Assembly: GCF_029338515.1 (NCBI RefSeq)
Contig: NZ_CP119988.1
Span: 1,798,001 to 1,862,000, forward strand
Length of the DNA: 64,000 nt
Direction: 5' to 3'
Source: Haloglomus litoreum
GTDB lineage: Archaea > Halobacteriota > Halobacteria > Halobacteriales > Haloarculaceae
Positions 8,628-36,878 of this stretch are shown here, piece by piece; position 1 is the stretch's first letter; each line of letters starts with the position of its first letter. Both the position numbers and the translations under genes were made by a program. The notes below the pieces were generated by a model, which worked only from the letters and a program-made list of their open reading frames with translations, did no database searches and was not told the origin of the DNA.

Positions 8628-8712
8628 CGGTGGGGATGGGATTTGAACCCATGAGGCGCGAAGCGCCAGTTGCTCTCAAGGCAACCACCTTGGGCCACTC
8701 GGTCACCCCACC
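8628..8712 (-). tRNA. tRNA-Ser (anticodon UGA)
   Basis: Read on the minus strand it folds as a class II tRNA: acceptor GGTGGGG (8712-8706) pairs with CCCCACC (8635-8629), discriminator G at 8628, D stem ACC/GGT, anticodon stem GTTGC/GCAAC with loop CTTGAGA (anticodon TGA), a long variable arm GCGCTTCGCGC, and T arm ATGGG-TTCAAAT-CCCAT. The long variable arm plus UGA anticodon identify serine. CCA is not encoded. A small hairpin (GTACCC/GGGTAC, 8588-8604) lies 24 nt past the 3' end. Confidence 0.97.
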
Positions 8713-25406: not shown

Positions 25407-26750
25407 ATGGCGGGTGAGGAACCGGTGCGTGTGGGGGTCCTGAGTCTCCACAACAGCAAGGAGACGAAGGCCATCCTGAACGCGGTCGAGGCGCTGGGCC
25501 ACCACACGGAGTGGCTGCGGACGGAGAACACGGTCGTCCGCTTCGAGGACGGTGGGACCACACTCTCTCCCGACGTGGACGTCGTGGTGAACCGGCTGCT
25601 CCTCTCGAACACGGACCAGCCGTCCGAGGAACTGGGGCTCGCACAGACGGTCCACGGGCTCCGGCCGATGCTCAACCCGCCGGAAGCGACCGCCCGTGCG
25701 GCCCACAAGACGGCTGCCGCGGCCCGCCTCGTCGCCGCGGGGCTCCCCGTCCCGAAGACGGTGTTCGCGCTGAGCTCGGACCAGCTCAACCGTGTCCGGG
25801 AGGAGTTCGGCGACGAGGCCGTCTACAAGACCGCCATCGGGACCCACGGTGGGGGCGCGTGGAAGGTCGGGCTCGCGGAGCCCCTCACCGCGCAGGTGGG
25901 CAAACGCCGGGCCTTCCTGCAGGAGGTCGTCGGCCGGGCCGGCGAGCCCCCCCGGGACCTCCGCGTGTACGTCGTGGACGGATCGGTCGTCGGCGCGATG
26001 TACCGGTACGCCGCCGAGAGCGACTGGCGGACGAACGTCGCCAGGGGCGGGCGAGTCGAGGACGCGAGCGACGACGCCCCCGCGGCGGTGCTCGACCTCG
26101 CCCGGCGTGCGGCCGCGACGATGGACCTCGACTGCGCCGGAGTCGACCTCATCGAGGGTGATGACCGGTGGTACATCCTGGAGGTGAACCCGACGGCCGG
26201 ATTCAAGGGGTTCTACCAGGCGACCGGTGTCAGCCCCGCCCCGCATATCGCTCGGATGGCCATCGAGGCGGCGGGCGGGTCGGTCGACCCGGCACTCGTC
26301 GAGAGTCTCGCGTCGACGCTCGACGACTCCGTCCCGGCCTGCAAGCCCGTCCCGGCGACCGAACCCGAGGCCGAGCGGGTCACCATCGGCTTCACCGAAC
26401 AGGTCGTCGTCCGGGGGACCGCCGGATCGAAGACCGTCGTCGCGAAGGCCGACAGCGGCGCCGCGCGGACGAGCATCGACATCCGACTGGCCGCGGACAT
26501 CGGCGCCGGACCCATCCACACCGTCTCGCGGGTCCGGTCGGGGAGCACGAAACAGTCGAAGGCGCGGCCGGTCGTCGACCTCGTTGTCGGCATCGGTGGC
26601 GAGCAACACACCGTGGCCGCGAACATCGAGGACCGCTCGCACATGAGCCACCGCCTGCTGCTGGGACGCGACATCCTCAGGAACTACACCCTCGATGTCA
26701 GCCGGCGGGTCGAGGACCCGGACGAGATTCCGGCCGGGAGCGAGGAGTGA
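25407..26750 (+). CDS. RimK-like ATP-grasp ligase fused to a retropepsin-like (RimB/Zn_protease) domain
   Basis: 447 residues from ATG 25407 (GTG 25401 also possible). N-terminal RimK pre-ATP-grasp domain (RVGVLSLHNSKETKAILNAV), then ATP-grasp from about 95 to 290: YKTAIGTHGGGAW, FLQEVVGRAG, RTNVARGG and metal motif LEVNPTAGFKGFYQ. From about 325 a second domain has VVAKADSGAARTSID, with Asp349 in a retropepsin-type DSG, and LLLGRDIL near the end, as in the DUF/Zn_protease (RimB) family. RimK-type enzymes add glutamate-like residues to peptides or small molecules, while RimB-like partners are usually separate genes. Here both are one polypeptide. Confidence 0.9.
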   Translation: MAGEEPVRVGVLSLHNSKETKAILNAVEALGHHTEWLRTENTVVRFEDGGTTLSPDVDVVVNRLLLSNTDQPSEELGLAQTVHGLRPMLNPPEATARAAHKTAAAARLVAAGLPVPKTVFALSSDQLNRVREEFGDEAVYKTAIGTHGGGAWKVGLAEPLTAQVGKRRAFLQEVVGRAGEPPRDLRVYVVDGSVVGAMYRYAAESDWRTNVARGGRVEDASDDAPAAVLDLARRAAATMDLDCAGVDLIEGDDRWYILEVNPTAGFKGFYQATGVSPAPHIARMAIEAAGGSVDPALVESLASTLDDSVPACKPVPATEPEAERVTIGFTEQVVVRGTAGSKTVVAKADSGAARTSIDIRLAADIGAGPIHTVSRVRSGSTKQSKARPVVDLVVGIGGEQHTVAANIEDRSHMSHRLLLGRDILRNYTLDVSRRVEDPDEIPAGSEE

Positions 26751-27646: not shown

Positions 27647-29545
27647 ATGGCCGCCGACTCCGAGCCGGTCCCGCTGGAGACGCTCGCCGGACTCCCCGAG
27701 TTCTACCATCCCGCGGTCGCCCCCGACGGGGACCGGGTGGCCCTGTACTACGACGGGACCGGTCGGAACGAACTCCACCTGCTCGACCGGGCGACCGGCG
27801 ACCACCGACCCGTGACCGACGGCGAGGTGCCGCGGGACGCCACCTGGCACCTCCGCTGGGGCGCCGACGGCGAGCGGGTCCTCTGTCACCGGGACGACGA
27901 CGGGGACGAACAGAACGACCTCGTGGCCGTGGCGCCCGGGTCGGGCCGCTCGCCGTCGGTCGAGACGCTCGTGGCCCACGACGGACAGGCGCAGTTGCGC
28001 GACGTGGCCGACGGCTCGATACTGTACGCCAGTGACCACGGCGGCCAGCTGAACTGCTACCGCCACGACATGGCCACGGGGACGACGACCCGCGTGACCG
28101 ACCACGACCAGCCCGTGTTCGGCGGCGTCTTCGCCCCCGACGGCGAGCGGGTCGCCTACGTCGCCAACGAGTCCGACCGGCTGGAGAACCGCGACGTCTA
28201 CCTCGCCGTCCCGGGTGAGGACCCGCGCCACCTCGACCTCGGGACCGACGGCTCGGAGACGTGGGCCGTCGACTGGTTCCCCGACGGCGACCGGCTGCTC
28301 GTGGACGACGACAGCGACGACACCAGCCGCATCGGTATCCACGACCTGACGACGGGGACCACGCGCTGGCTCACGCCCGACGCGGCGACCCACCCGGAGA
28401 AGAGCGTTGCCGTCGCTCCCGGCGGTGAACGGGTCGTCGGCGTGCGCGAGCGCCGGGCGGCGACGATGCCGCTGGTCTACGACGTGGCCTCCGGCGAGGC
28501 CAGGGAACTGGCGCTGCCCGAGGGGGCTGCGGGGCTGGAGGGCCAGCGCTGGAGCGGTGCGCGCGTCTTCGCCGACGATGATACCCTCCTGCTGGGCCAC
28601 TCGACGGCCGCCCGGCGGAGGACGCTGTACGAGTACGACCTCGCGGCCGACGAGGCCCGCGAACGGCTCCCGCCGGCGTACGGCGATCTCGACCCGTCCG
28701 TGTTCGTCGACGCCTCGTACGTCACCTACGGGAGCGACGGGACCCCGAAACCGTTCGGCGACGACGACACGGGCGGGGCACCGGACCACTACGACATCGG
28801 TGGCCTGCTGTTCGACCCGCGCGACGGGCCGAGCCGACCCGACGACGCCACGGACGTCCCCGGCATCGTCTACGTCCACGGTGGCCCACACTTCCAGACG
28901 AGCCGCCGATTCAACGTCTACATCCAGTTCCTGGTCTCCCAGGGGTACGCCGTGTTCGCGCCGAACTACCGGGGCTCGACGGGCCGCGGGCGCGAGTTCC
29001 GCCATGCCATCCACGGCGACTGGGGCGGGGCCGAGCAGGCCGACATCGCGGCGGGTGGCCGCTGGCTGATGGACCGCGACTGGGTCGACGCCGACCGGGT
29101 CGGCGTGATGGGTGGCTCCTTCGGCGGCTACAGCGTCTTCTGCCAGCTCACCGGCTACCCGGCGCTGTGGGCCGCCGGCATCGCCTGGGTCGGCATCACG
29201 GACCTCCACCGACTCTACGCCGAGGACATGCCCCACTTCAAGCACAGTCTCCGGACGCAGATGGGCGACCCCGAGGACGACCGGGCGCTGTGGCGCGAGC
29301 GCAGCCCCATCGAGCACGCCGACGCCGTCGAGCGGCCGCTCGCGATGTACCACGGCGTCAACGACCCGCGGTGCCCGGTCGAGCAGTCGCGGCTGTTCCG
29401 GGACGCACTCGTCGACCGGGGACTCGAAGCCGGGACGGACTTCGAGTACGAGGAACCCCAGGCGGAGGGCCACGGCTCGACGGACATCGACCGGAAGGTC
29501 CGCCAGTTCGAGTTCATGGCCGACTTCCTCGAGCGGCGGCTCTGA
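27647..29545 (+). CDS. S9 family (prolyl oligopeptidase-like) serine peptidase
   Basis: 632 residues. The N-terminal two thirds is a beta-propeller-like region with WD/TolB-type repeats (FYHPAVAPDGDRVALYY, VFGGVFAPDGERVAYV). The C-terminal hydrolase domain has nucleophile GGSFGGYS near Ser490, Asp573 in NDPRCPVEQS and His near 609 in EGHGSTD. This is the acyl-aminoacyl peptidase/dipeptidyl peptidase layout. No signal peptide, so cytoplasmic peptide degradation is likely. ATG 27647 is chosen because an upstream ATG at 27587 precedes GC-rich non-coding-like sequence. Confidence 0.92.
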   Translation: MAADSEPVPLETLAGLPEFYHPAVAPDGDRVALYYDGTGRNELHLLDRATGDHRPVTDGEVPRDATWHLRWGADGERVLCHRDDDGDEQNDLVAVAPGSGRSPSVETLVAHDGQAQLRDVADGSILYASDHGGQLNCYRHDMATGTTTRVTDHDQPVFGGVFAPDGERVAYVANESDRLENRDVYLAVPGEDPRHLDLGTDGSETWAVDWFPDGDRLLVDDDSDDTSRIGIHDLTTGTTRWLTPDAATHPEKSVAVAPGGERVVGVRERRAATMPLVYDVASGEARELALPEGAAGLEGQRWSGARVFADDDTLLLGHSTAARRRTLYEYDLAADEARERLPPAYGDLDPSVFVDASYVTYGSDGTPKPFGDDDTGGAPDHYDIGGLLFDPRDGPSRPDDATDVPGIVYVHGGPHFQTSRRFNVYIQFLVSQGYAVFAPNYRGSTGRGREFRHAIHGDWGGAEQADIAAGGRWLMDRDWVDADRVGVMGGSFGGYSVFCQLTGYPALWAAGIAWVGITDLHRLYAEDMPHFKHSLRTQMGDPEDDRALWRERSPIEHADAVERPLAMYHGVNDPRCPVEQSRLFRDALVDRGLEAGTDFEYEEPQAEGHGSTDIDRKVRQFEFMADFLERRL

Positions 29546-30573: not shown

Positions 30574-30741
30574 GCCCCGTCGTAGGTGGGGCGGAGGTAA
30601 GAACCTCTCGGGAGCGTCCCCGCCACGCACTCCGCGCCCTGCCGCCCGCTCCGACGCTTGGATGGTTCTGTCAGAATCCTTTGAAGGGTGGGAACGGCAG
30701 ACAGGGTAGCTGCGCTGCCGTATCACGACAACTGCTCAGAT

Positions 30742-33700
30742 ATGTCCCGAGACAGGAGCTCACCGGAGGGGAGTACAGGGAAGGACCGGTTCACGGACGC
30801 GGCCATCGACCGGCGGACGTTCGTCAAACTCTCGGCGGCGACCGGCGCGGCGCTCGCGCTGCCCGGCAACGCGAGCGCCGACGCGAGCGTCGGCGCGTTC
30901 GAGGCCGATTACCAGTACGTCCAGAACCACACGCCGACGGACCACGCGGTCCCGACGCTCGTCGAGTTCGAGGACGGTGCGGACCCGTCGGTACTGGAGG
31001 CGTTCGACACGAACGCCATCTCGACGACCGAGCCGCGGAGCGCCGCGTACGGGCGGCTGACGGCGGCCGAGGCCGACGCTGCGGCTACGGAACTGCCGGC
31101 GGCATCGAACTTCCAGTTTGCGCCCGGGTCGAACCCGTTCTGGCGCATCGGCTACTACCCGTTCGGCGTGTTCCCGGAGGCGCGGCGCTCGGTCGACTTC
31201 GTCGGGTTCGAGCAGCTCAAGGACGGCCTCCGCGAACTGGAGGATCGCTACCCGGACACCATCAATGTCGAGCGGTTCGGGGAGTCGCCGGGCCACCGCA
31301 ACAACGCCACCCAGCGCGACGACCCGAAGGGGATGTACCTCGCCGAGGTGACCGACTTCACCTCCGACGCCTCCTTCGAGGAGAAGGAGAAGGTGTTCTT
31401 CTCCTGTTCGCTGCACGGCCTGGAGCGGGCCGGCGCCGAGGCCGGTGCGCGCATCATCGAGAACATCGCCCGTGGCGACCAGTACGCGGGTGACCTGCCG
31501 GACCTGCTGGCGGACGCCGTCCTGATATTCGGCTTCACCAACCCGGACGGATGGGCGGTCCGGAACCCGCAGTACGACTCGGGCTGGCAGGTCGGCGGCC
31601 CCGGCACGGGGACGCCCCGGGCGCCGGCCGCCCCGCTGTTCGAGCGGGGGAACGCCGAGATCTACGACACGAACCGCCAGTACCCGACGGTCGGCTACAT
31701 CACGACGGCACACAACCCGGCCGAACCCCGGGACGCGCCCGACTACATCGACCGGAAGGTCCCGGACGCGGTGGCGGTCGTCGAGCAGTTCCGCTCGTAC
31801 GAGAACCTCAACTACGGCGCGGACCTCCACGGCGGCCCCCTGTTCGAGGACTTCGTCCTCGGGCTCATCAGCCAGGACCAGTACACCCTCGAGGAGGCCC
31901 ACGAGGTGTACGCGATGTGCGAGGTCATCAAGGAGAACCTCGACGAGGCGCTCGTCGAGTGGCAGACCGCCGGTGACCTGAGCGCACCCCTCCGGAACGC
32001 GCTGGGCAACCCGTCGGTCCCGCTCGCCGGCGGGACTCCGCCGGACGACGCGTTCGACTACGCCACCATCTACGACACCATCGGCTACACCGTCTCCGGC
32101 GCGATGCTGGACTGGATGGCCCACCCCGAGGACCTCGGCGGCCTGGGGATGACGACGCTCGACTTCGAGATGTCGTTCTCGCACATGGCCGGCGGCAACG
32201 TCTACAACCCCGAGCTCCTGCGGATGGAGGTGCTGGGCTACCGCGAGGCCATCCGGACCATCTCCGAGTTCGCGGTCCGGAACTCCGACACGCCCACGAC
32301 CGACGACGAGTTCGACACCGTCGTCGAGACGACGGTCGAGACGAGTAGCGATGGCGGCGAGTCGGTCGCGTTCGTCACGCCCACGGAGGTCACGGTCGAA
32401 CGGGAGGCGGACGCGGACCGGTACGAGCCGGGCGACGTCGTCGCGCCCGACGACCCGCTCACGCGCTCGAACGACGACCTGGCGTTCGCATCCTCGACCG
32501 GGGAGGTGGACACGTTCTCGGCCTCGGGGACCATCGGCCCCGGCGTCGGTGAGGGGGTCGCCCCGACGAGGGTCGAGGAGCCGTTCGACACCGCCGACCT
32601 GGACGGCGACCCGTTCGCGCTCGACGCCGAGCTGAGTTGGACCCCGCCCGGGGAGGACCTCGAGTTCTTCCTCGAGGACCCCGACGGCAAGCAGGTCGGG
32701 AGCGCTGTCACCGCGAGCAACCCCGAGACGATGAGCAACGTCCCGCTGGAGGCGGACGGAACGTACACCTTCGTCGTCGAGACGTACGCCAACGTCGCGG
32801 CCCAGTACGAGATTTCGGCGTCGTTCATCGGGCAGACCGACGGGAGCGGAACGGAGACCGACGAGACGAGCGAGTCGACGACCGTCCCCGGGGTGAGCGT
32901 CCCCGGAACGAGCGTCGCCACCGTCTCCCAGGAGGTCCCGGCCGGCCTGCACAGCATGCAGGTCCACACGCACTCCCAGAGCGGCATCATGGACCTCGAA
33001 CTCGTCTCGCCCTCCGGCGATGTCGTTCGGGAGTTCGAGGGGATCACCGAGAAGCGCATCGGGGGGAAGTGCTGTGGCTTCCCGGAGTGGGATGTCGCCG
33101 AGCCCGAGCCCGGCGAGTGGACCGTCCGCATGACGAACCTGCTGGCCGAGACGAAAGGGGTCGAGGTCCAGTTCGCGACGCTCTCCTCGAACTCGACGAA
33201 TCCCGACCCGAAGGGGGCACTGGGCTACGAACAGCGTGACTACGAGGTCACGCCGCTCCAGTTCGCCGCCGACTACGACGCGGCCGTCGGGGACGCCGGC
33301 GCCGTCGACCTCGTCTCGGTCGACGCGGTGGCGACCGAGGATGCGCTCTCGGGCTACGACCACGCGGTCGTCATCCACGACTACATCGACGCGGCCAACC
33401 GTGTCGGTGACGGCGCGGTCGACACCGAGTACTTCGACGCCCTCGACGCCTTCGTCGACGACGGCAACAACCTCGTCCTGACGGACACGGGTGTCACCCT
33501 GCTGGGTGTCCTGGAGAACGGGCTCGTCGGAGACGGGCAGTTCGGCGCGGACGCGTTCACCACCACGACCCAGGACGTCGCCCGCTACACGAGCAAGAAC
33601 CTCGACCACCCGCTGATGACCGACGTGCGACCCATCCAGAACCAGCTCTGGAAGGTCGCGCCGCTCGGGTACAACGTGAGCGGGCAGGCGCCGAGCCATC

Positions 33701-34455
33701 TCGTCTCGCAGGGCGCGTTCACCGGCGGGCCGGCCACGTCGTCGGTCGCGGGCACCATCGACGGCGCCGTCGCGACGGGGTCGCTCACGCGCGGGCCGGA
33801 CGACGGGACCGGCGTCCACGTCATCGGGTCGCTCCTGCCGCCCGCGAGCCAGGCGAATCTGCACCCGTTCGGCCTGCTCGACTACACCGTCTCGTTCCTG
33901 GGCTACCTCGTGTTCACCTCCGCGCTGGGCTTCCAGCAGGTCCGCACGGTCGAGGGCGAGGCGTTCCGCTTCGGCCGGGGTGACTCCTGGAGCACCGGCG
34001 GCGGCTCGGGGGGTTCCGGCGGCTCGGGAGGTGGCCCCGGCGCCGCGGGCTCCCGCGGCGACACGAACAGCCCGTACACGCCCGGGGCGACCCATCAGGT
34101 CGAACTCACGATCACCGAACTCTCGGAGACGGCCACCGTGACCGACTCGCTGCCGTCGAGCGACTGGGGGGTGGTCGGCGGTGGCGGCACCCAGAACGGC
34201 GCCGAGGTCGACCTCGGCGAGGTCGGGGCCGTCGACGCCTCCGACGACCCGGTCACGCTGAACTACTTCGTGGAGGTGCCCGAGACCAACGGGCAGGCGA
34301 CCTTCGGCCCGGCCGCGGCCAGCACCAGCGGCGGCACGACCGCGTTCGGCGGCACGAACACGGTCACGGTGGTCGGCGGGACGGGCGCTCCGGCGTCGTC
34401 CGGGACCGACACCTCCCTGACGGACGACCACGGGTTCACCGCGGACACGCTGTGA
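30742..34455 (+). CDS. Tat-exported M14 zinc carboxypeptidase, multidomain
   Basis: 1,237 residues from ATG 30742. Twin-arginine signal DRRTFVKLSAATGAALALPG with the RR in the first 30 residues. M14 domain about 150-520: HGLERAGAEAG gives His225/Glu228, the third zinc ligand is probably His in GADLHGGP near 363, and the catalytic Glu is in TLDFEMSFSH near 475. Then two prepeptidase-like beta domains (about 570-720 and 740-830), a ThuA/flavodoxin-like region (about 840-1070), a Gly/Ser linker and a C-terminal beta module similar to that of the S8 protease at 61180-63534. Single gene; presumably secreted to degrade peptides. Confidence 0.9.
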   Translation: MSRDRSSPEGSTGKDRFTDAAIDRRTFVKLSAATGAALALPGNASADASVGAFEADYQYVQNHTPTDHAVPTLVEFEDGADPSVLEAFDTNAISTTEPRSAAYGRLTAAEADAAATELPAASNFQFAPGSNPFWRIGYYPFGVFPEARRSVDFVGFEQLKDGLRELEDRYPDTINVERFGESPGHRNNATQRDDPKGMYLAEVTDFTSDASFEEKEKVFFSCSLHGLERAGAEAGARIIENIARGDQYAGDLPDLLADAVLIFGFTNPDGWAVRNPQYDSGWQVGGPGTGTPRAPAAPLFERGNAEIYDTNRQYPTVGYITTAHNPAEPRDAPDYIDRKVPDAVAVVEQFRSYENLNYGADLHGGPLFEDFVLGLISQDQYTLEEAHEVYAMCEVIKENLDEALVEWQTAGDLSAPLRNALGNPSVPLAGGTPPDDAFDYATIYDTIGYTVSGAMLDWMAHPEDLGGLGMTTLDFEMSFSHMAGGNVYNPELLRMEVLGYREAIRTISEFAVRNSDTPTTDDEFDTVVETTVETSSDGGESVAFVTPTEVTVEREADADRYEPGDVVAPDDPLTRSNDDLAFASSTGEVDTFSASGTIGPGVGEGVAPTRVEEPFDTADLDGDPFALDAELSWTPPGEDLEFFLEDPDGKQVGSAVTASNPETMSNVPLEADGTYTFVVETYANVAAQYEISASFIGQTDGSGTETDETSESTTVPGVSVPGTSVATVSQEVPAGLHSMQVHTHSQSGIMDLELVSPSGDVVREFEGITEKRIGGKCCGFPEWDVAEPEPGEWTVRMTNLLAETKGVEVQFATLSSNSTNPDPKGALGYEQRDYEVTPLQFAADYDAAVGDAGAVDLVSVDAVATEDALSGYDHAVVIHDYIDAANRVGDGAVDTEYFDALDAFVDDGNNLVLTDTGVTLLGVLENGLVGDGQFGADAFTTTTQDVARYTSKNLDHPLMTDVRPIQNQLWKVAPLGYNVSGQAPSHLVSQGAFTGGPATSSVAGTIDGAVATGSLTRGPDDGTGVHVIGSLLPPASQANLHPFGLLDYTVSFLGYLVFTSALGFQQVRTVEGEAFRFGRGDSWSTGGGSGGSGGSGGGPGAAGSRGDTNSPYTPGATHQVELTITELSETATVTDSLPSSDWGVVGGGGTQNGAEVDLGEVGAVDASDDPVTLNYFVEVPETNGQATFGPAAASTSGGTTAFGGTNTVTVVGGTGAPASSGTDTSLTDDHGFTADTL

Positions 34456-36057: not shown

Positions 36058-36204
36058 ATGCGCGACGAAGAGGAGATCCGCGAGCAGTACGAGTTCCTGA
36101 AGGCCGAGCTGGACGACGAGGACATGAAACACGAGGGCGTCAGGCAGATGTTCACCTACTACAAGCGGGCGCTGGGCTGGGTCCTCGAGGAGGAGTACAT
36201 CTGA
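36058..36204 (+). CDS. 48-residue acidic small protein
   Basis: ATG 36058 to TGA 36202-36204, starting MRDEEEIREQYEFLKAELDDE and ending YYKRALGWVLEEEYI. Acidic, helical, no TM. A TATA-like GACCGTATACTGC lies about 12-25 nt upstream, and GC-ending codons dominate. It looks like a genuine haloarchaeal microprotein rather than chance. Function unknown. Confidence 0.7.
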   Translation: MRDEEEIREQYEFLKAELDDEDMKHEGVRQMFTYYKRALGWVLEEEYI

Positions 36205-36238
36205 ACGTCCGGCACCCCGGCTTCCGCGGTCGGTAGTC

Positions 36239-36362
36239 TTAAGTGCAAACGCCGATTCGTATCGGGTGACGCTTCGCTTGGAGGGCCGAAGCGTCAGCGG
36301 GGACCAATTCAGGGCGGCAACGGCCGACCGGCCTTTTCATCCGGTCGGCCGCTGCTTTCCTT
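36239..36362 (+). ncRNA. Candidate structured small RNA with two perfect hairpins
   Basis: A TTAAGT element (36239-36244) is followed at the right distance by hairpin 1: TGACGCTTCG (36267-36276), loop CTTGGAGGGC, CGAAGCGTCA (36287-36296), a perfect 10-bp stem whose loop contains the anti-16S-like GGAGG. A 24-nt linker (GCGGGGACCAATTCAGGGCGGCAA, quoted in part) leads to hairpin 2: CGGCCGACCGG (36321-36331), loop CCTTTTCAT, CCGGTCGGCCG (36341-36351), a perfect 11-bp stem, then CTGCTTTCCTTTCG, terminator-like. Expected transcript about 95 nt from 36267. No ORF fits. Known class not recognised. The remaining 36363-36605 holds only the PadR promoter. Confidence 0.5.
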
Positions 36363-36605
36363 TCGACGACTAACCGACGAGCGACTGGACCGTCCGTCGT
36401 CGGCGGGAGACGACAGGTCAGACATCGGAGGCGTACACGTCGGGGCTGCCGGCGGGTGGCAGGGTTCCTCGTAGAGGCGGCGTCGGAACCACTATCCCAC
36501 GGTTATCGGGCCGGACGCACCCGTCCCGACACAGATTCGGGGAGTGACATGATTACATCGATACACTTATTCGAGGCCGACGACAAGGGCCTGACAGGTA
36601 CGCCC

Positions 36606-36878
36606 ATGTACGACCTCACCGGGTTCCAGCGAGACCTCCTCTACGTCATCGCGGGCCGCGAGGAGCCGCACGGCCTCGCGATCAAGGAGGAGCTGGAGGA
36701 CTACTACGAGAAGGAGATCCACCATGGCCGGCTCTACCCCAACCTCGACACGCTGGTCGAGAAGGGGCTGGTGGAGAAGGGCCAGCACGACCGCCGGACG
36801 AACTACTACACGCTGACACGACGGGGTCGGCGCGAGATCGACGCGCGCCGGGAGTGGGAGGAACAGTACCTCGATTGA
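36606..36878 (+). CDS. PadR-family transcriptional regulator
   Basis: 90 residues from ATG 36606. It is a compact PadR winged helix: MYDLTGFQRDLLYVIAG, then EELEDYYEKEIHHGRLYPNLDTLVEKGLVEKG and YTLTRRGRREI. Similar haloarchaeal PadR proteins include the oxidative-stress regulator RosR of Halobacterium; I cannot say whether this is an orthologue. CACTTATTC (36565-36573) sits about 33-41 nt upstream as TATA box, supporting this start over ATG 36549, which would add 19 unusual residues. Confidence 0.9.
   Translation: MYDLTGFQRDLLYVIAGREEPHGLAIKEELEDYYEKEIHHGRLYPNLDTLVEKGLVEKGQHDRRTNYYTLTRRGRREIDARREWEEQYLD

Follow-up and report, generated by a model that had tools for sequence, protein, structure and literature searches.

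What does the DNA at positions 36,239 to 36,362 of the window, the whole 64,000-nucleotide stretch of Haloglomus litoreum contig NZ_CP119988.1 analysed here, encode? An earlier note had described two perfect hairpins between a TATA-like TTAAGT and a pyrimidine-rich tail, and had proposed a small RNA of about 95 nt that starts at the first stem. The letters of this element and all of its coordinates match the window sequence to the base. All features lie on the forward strand. The promoter (36231-36244) consists of a BRE-like CGGTA (36231-36235) and a TATA box CTTAAGT (36238-36244), of which TTAAGT occupies 36239-36244. Hairpin 1 (36267-36296) has a perfect 10-bp stem, formed by TGACGCTTCG (36267-36276) and CGAAGCGTCA (36287-36296), and its loop CTTGGAGGGC (36277-36286) holds a GGAGG motif; the loop segment TGGAGGGC is the same in all aligned copies. 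The linker AATTCAGGGCGGCAA (36306-36320), which is conserved in single-copy lineages and different in many Haloferacaceae copies, leads into hairpin 2 (36321-36351), a perfect 11-bp stem of CGGCCGACCGG (36321-36331) and CCGGTCGGCCG (36341-36351) around CCTTTTCAT (36332-36340). This U-rich apical loop, CCUUUUCAU, is a candidate U-tract that could serve as an Lsm site or a termination signal. Directly 3' of hairpin 2 lies CTTTCCTTTCG, and the pyrimidine-rich tail CTTTCCTTTC (36355-36364), with a conserved GCTTTCC motif, probably marks the 3' end.

The element overlaps no ORF of 60 aa or longer, and the length variants of the first loop between species (CTT, CTTT, and TCT) would disrupt any reading frame, in agreement with the view that no coding frame explains it. 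The region folds somewhat better than shuffled sequences (z = -2.6 on the forward strand and z = -4.4 on the reverse strand). In blastn searches, window positions 36266-36320 were about 100% identical across families, and the element was present in nearly all of 59 relatives. Chance origin is ruled out by these roughly 55 nt of near-complete identity across haloarchaeal families, together with covariation in the second stem. Comparative sequence evidence thus identifies the element as the genuine gene of a small non-coding RNA, about 100 bases long and with its own promoter.

The TATA hexamer begins 30 nt 5' of GACG in 121 of 122 distinct loci, and the upstream consensus of the 122 loci is CG.tA..tTTAagt, which includes the BRE-like CG.tA. 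Because the TATA box keeps this fixed spacing, with a BRE-like element upstream, the transcript should start at hairpin 1; this spacing and the 5' limit of strict conservation place the putative start at 36265-36267. The strand is indicated by hairpin 2, in which G.U pairs (190) far exceed single A.C mismatches (25) over the 122 loci, as expected if the forward strand is the RNA. The TATA box at -30, the stem-2 covariation, and the forward-strand G.U bias all support a small RNA that stands alone, measures about 95-105 nt, and has its 5' end at the first stem; the length is close to that originally proposed.

The two hairpins are conserved in different ways. The 5' core, D1 (36268-36305; GACGCTTCG-CTT-GGAGGGCCGAAGCGTCAGCGGGGACC), comprises hairpin 1 without the partner of the terminal U-A pair at 36267, plus the single-stranded AGCGGGGACC that follows the 10-bp hairpin and its loop UGGAGGGC. 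In the model-based alignment of 89 distinct sequences, for which E <= 1e-7 was the sole requirement, eight of the ten stem-1 pairs never vary, one is kept through G.U in one sequence, and fraying of the terminal pair from U-A to C.A is seen in four; there are no compensatory changes. The loop varies solely in the three to four nucleotides of its 5' side (CTT, CTTT, TCT, TTCT, or TCTT), and GGAGGGCC shows no variation in the 122 distinct loci, a set that required the core, as did the covariance model R1, which was built from core-bearing copies; both could therefore miss any copy whose D1 has changed strongly. A loop-linker pseudoknot, UUGG:CCAA, was considered and ruled out by CCUA linkers and CUGG loops, and GG:CC alone could be general.

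The 3' domain, D2 (36311-36361), is a terminator-like hairpin that extends the perfect part at 36321-36351 by a base of AGGGcGG...CCtTT. Its sequence drifts freely, yet its pairing is kept and its apical loop stays U-rich. In the same 89 sequences, compensatory double changes occur in all seven modelled stem-2 pairs, with 96 compensatory cells against 20.9 in shuffles (none of 500 shuffles reached 96). Across both stems together, 97% of cells hold a pair, compared with 32-51% when the structure is slid along the alignment. Stem 2 has at least 13 pairs in all 122 distinct loci (median 18), the apical loops are 61% U compared with 7% U in the 5' arm, and UUU occurs apically in 102 of the 122 loci. 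The earlier note had named loss of the stems in relatives as evidence against an RNA and compensatory changes in both stems as support for one: the stems are conserved, and such changes occur in stem 2 but not in stem 1, which is invariant in sequence. The invariance of stem 1, the covariation of stem 2, and a core that outlasts the tails of paralogs therefore define two domains, D1 kept by sequence and D2 by shape.

With R1, 389 of the 391 Halobacteriales genomes proved to carry the element; the two genomes without it belong to two different families (f9 and f11). All confident matches among 295 genomes across the phylum fall within Halobacteriales, and none outside this order is convincing. 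Two candidates outside the order (L097 and L098) were rejected, as their E values of 0.02-0.05 per genome are at chance level over about 240 genomes and one lacks stem 1. Most genomes carry one copy, and Halobacterium is an example of a one-copy genus. The Haloferacaceae (family f4, which includes Haloferax by PCNA identity) usually carry two paralogs with the same core, whose sequences beyond GGGGACC cannot be aligned to each other, and the Haloferax genomes have two copies each. Three to four model matches were seen in five genomes of this family (G380, G381, G443, G382, and G378) and in two of family f1 (G014 and G033).

Some copies depart from this pattern. A second copy in G032 (L096, reverse strand, about 1430-1487) is truncated: hairpin 1 is intact with one G.U pair, the linker is altered, and the tail hairpin is absent, so that it resembles a decaying duplicate. 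Two unannotated megaplasmid copies, on Halorubrum lacusprofundi pHLAC01 (L101, 3996-4089) and on a plasmid of Haloarcula sp. GH36 (L102, 3998-4089), have a nearly complete D1 core with diverged promoter and tail sequences. A viral, phage, or plasmid origin was rejected: R1 searches of viral contigs and phages found no copy, and the plasmid matches are these two divergent megaplasmid copies.

We compared the family with known classes of RNA. For the element, Rfam 15 (cmscan) gave no match at the gathering threshold, to tRNA or any other family, and the best sub-threshold matches (E 0.4-1) are at noise level. The housekeeping RNAs in Rfam (SRP, RNase P, box C/D, and H/ACA) are likewise universal, hyperconserved, and small, but none matches here; by reading, positions 36266-36364 contain neither a box C RUGAUGA with a box D CUGA nor an ACA box after a pocketed hairpin, in line with the original view that the RNA belongs to none of these classes. 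The bacterial protein-titrating sRNAs CsrB and RsmZ share with it the placement of GGA motifs, in the loop of a hairpin and in unpaired linker sequence, ahead of a terminator hairpin. However, the window RNA has just two GGA motifs, and CsrA (PF02599) is absent from all eight genomes tested and was detected in three control bacteria; the CsrB/RsmZ-like layout is plausible as a working analogy, not as membership. The rancRNA_s194 of Haloferax volcanii is also an intergenic haloarchaeal RNA of about 97 nt with its own TATA box. It is associated with ribosomes and is reported in nine Haloferax species only (PMC6104027), whereas the window RNA family is universal in haloarchaea; s194 was accordingly rejected as a literature name for it.

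A closer counterpart is the H. volcanii sRNA hts10 (HVO_2213s), which was found by high-throughput sequencing (Heyer et al. 2012, as listed in Jaschinski et al. 2014) and is reported from 18 other haloarchaeal genomes (PMC3956466). Its locus lies directly behind HVO_2213, near HVO_2204 and HVO_2212. The second copy in Haloferax (L072, L134, and L157) has the full core, the TATA box, and the tail hairpin. In a Haloferax genome that encodes a PCNA with 100% identity to that of H. volcanii, this copy lies 6.0 kb from CetZ1 (upstream; 99% identical to PDB 4b46), in the order CetZ1, 78-aa AsnC protein, DUF5813 gene, and RNA; the gene beyond the RNA is probably a methyl-accepting transducer. CetZ1 is HVO_2204 (PMC10927574) and HVO_2212 has 78 aa (PMC12850539). 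Because this gene order fits, copy 2 is very probably hts10, an identification made by gene order and not by comparison with the H. volcanii sequence itself. One family member, hts10, is then already known in H. volcanii, and the window copy is a new, padR-linked member of that uncharacterised RNA. In the published set of many sRNAs, hts10 appears as a conserved one with a size of 161 nt (PMC3956466), longer than the modelled RNA of about 100 nt. In the open papers seen, hts10 is credited neither with two domains nor with a paralog, universal occurrence, or a family model, and we found no description of the RNA as a family, which is also absent from Rfam; searches of the open literature with the RNA's sequence strings returned nothing relevant.

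Other literature names were considered. H225.2R (HVO_1727s2), weighed against hts10 for copy 2, has a TBP gene on one side and HVO_1728, a 16S gene, on the other, and is therefore a different locus. HVO_2908s was rejected because HVO_2906, an RNA-modification gene, was not seen near either copy. H3.2 was also weighed as a name for a family copy. The estimated position of htsf_416 (HVO_2834s) roughly fits Haloferax copy 1, an identity that is not established.

Cells without hts10 are viable; their lag on acetate is prolonged, and their growth is altered modestly (PMC3956466). Since one copy was deleted and Haloferax genomes have two, the paralog left in place may have masked a stronger phenotype, and the two copies account for the possible mildness of the published deletion. 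The universal, nearly invariant D1 contrasts with the published view of rapid sRNA turnover in haloarchaea, where, of the 27 H. volcanii sRNAs that were tested, 22 lacked a homolog in every other haloarchaeon (PMC3956466). The family points to an RNA-based function common to the whole haloarchaeal class.

Genes beside the RNA raise the alternative of a cis-acting role. The upstream neighbour (36058-36204, forward strand) is a separate, syntenic gene for a 48-aa acidic protein, MRDEEEIREQ... (MRDEEEIREQYEFLKAELDDEDMKHEGVRQMFTYYKRALGWVLEEEYI), which matches no Pfam family and is found at 72 of 121 loci. Downstream (36606-36878, forward strand) lies a separate, syntenic gene for a PadR-family regulator (PF03551, E = 5.6e-18), which accompanies the RNA in the same orientation at 80 of the 121 loci. 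This neighbour is unusually conserved, with a median identity of 89% across haloarchaeal families, and keeps its place beside the RNA; a DUF7117 gene is also near many loci. With such synteny a cis role keeps some plausibility, and an attenuator has the same layout, with a folded 5' domain ahead of a terminator-like hairpin, so that the RNA could be the leader of padR, with a riboswitch-like aptamer and a terminator. We nevertheless regard this as very improbable. At 41 of the 121 loci there is no PadR nearby, including the second copies of Haloferacaceae, which adjoin the AsnC protein and DUF5813 instead; the distance from RNA to PadR varies from 208 to 841 nt; and a putative opposite-strand reading frame in the gap, about 100-200 nt downstream of the RNA, is conserved in 11 of the first 30 loci. 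The constant linkage to a downstream regulated gene that characterises riboswitches and attenuators is lacking across the 121 loci. The synteny suggests an RNA gene that is mostly inherited in place, yet is not a padR leader. That the conserved unit is a DNA element, such as an operator or a recombination or integration site, is harder still to credit, even though the two arms of stem 1 repeat each other perfectly in inverted order, zero compensatory changes are seen there, and extra and decayed copies occur (G032 and plasmids). Against a DNA element stand the fixed TATA spacing, the stem-2 covariation, the one-strand G.U bias, and the mostly vertical synteny; an hts10-type transcript has been detected in H. 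volcanii (PMC3956466), and no copy was found in viral contigs or phages.

Two further alternatives make the exposed bases of D1 a pairing site. The earlier note had suggested that the loop could pair through GGAGG, either with the 3' end of 16S rRNA or with mRNAs at CCUCC sites. GGAGG is invariant and exposed, GGATCACCTCCT is present at the 16S 3' end in the window's genome and in a Haloferax, and other H. volcanii sRNAs occupy ribosomes (PMC6104027, PMC12482152), so the RNA could compete with Shine-Dalgarno-led initiation. But this pairing comprises just five base pairs, as expected by chance, and its flanks mismatch (the next invariant G faces A and the preceding U faces U). Apart from these five generic bases, GGAGG with the CCTCC of the 16S end, complementarity to three rRNA operons was within the shuffled range and without a shared site. 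Shine-Dalgarno-like motifs precede just about 15% of roughly called genes. We consider a ribosome-directed RNA improbable, and the anti-Shine-Dalgarno reading unsupported; the invariant part of loop and linker exceeds what such pairing would explain. A regulator that uses the loop UGGAGGG or the single-stranded GGGGACC as a seed for mRNAs has a somewhat better, still small, chance of being right: both are invariant and predicted to be single-stranded, base-pairing sRNAs are known in haloarchaea, and GCCCTCC, the complement of GGAGGGC, is in the top 5% of 7-mers of the same composition in Haloferax start regions. In the window's own genome, however, GCCCTCC ranks at 0.76, and GGTCCCC has no matches in either genome; complementary 7-mers are thus not consistently enriched at start codons, a comparison of low power (two 400-kb genome samples, about 490 predicted genes). 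Nor does a seed alone explain why both strands of a 10-bp stem are frozen. Pairing with a conserved RNA target could also account for the invariance of stem 1.

On balance we favour, with some confidence, a universal trans-acting non-coding RNA of the hts10 family, with a D1 that is read by protein and a 3' hairpin that ends or protects the RNA. The RNA would be free-standing, about 100 nt long, and transcribed from hairpin 1. Its working part would be the 5' domain, the hairpin with its loop and the single strand behind it, read in a sequence-specific manner. A partner that reads D1 bases is suggested because stem 1 bars compensatory change while stem 2 of the same molecule covaries freely. 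This partner is most likely a protein, or else an RNA that would pair with the opened 3' strand; a conserved protein touching both stem and loop seems the best candidate, since contacts to the bases of both would leave compensatory changes in D1 untolerated. The RNA may act as an RNP or a protein-titrating regulator and not as a simple antisense RNA. More tentatively, and with considerably less confidence, it may be an unrecognised universal haloarchaeal RNP with a 38-nt 5' domain frozen near rRNA levels, which arose at the base of the haloarchaea, titrates or guides a protein central to the salt-adapted cell, and was missed genetically since Haloferax has two redundant copies, one of which was deleted.

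The 3' hairpin with its U-rich loop may also recruit the Sm-like protein Lsm. We found an LSM protein in seven of eight genomes tested, and the element combines a U-rich single-stranded site with an Lsm partner in the genome, as an Lsm-bound sRNA would. Archaeal Lsm binds U-rich RNA (PMC10779274), and ten intergenic and seven bioinformatically predicted sRNAs co-purified with the H. volcanii Lsm (PMC3432209). The U-rich apical loop is therefore a reasonable Lsm contact. In one genome (G050, contig C4), the LSM gene (25422-25589) lies 3.3 kb from the RNA (28879-28985); the distance is 26-32 kb in G130 and G188, and the nearness may be chance gene order. Elsewhere in the window, a tRNA gene (8628-8712, reverse strand) is the sole Rfam match, and the gene at 30688-34455 (forward strand) encodes a large protein that has a TAT signal, an M14 zinc carboxypeptidase domain, and a long region at its C terminus.
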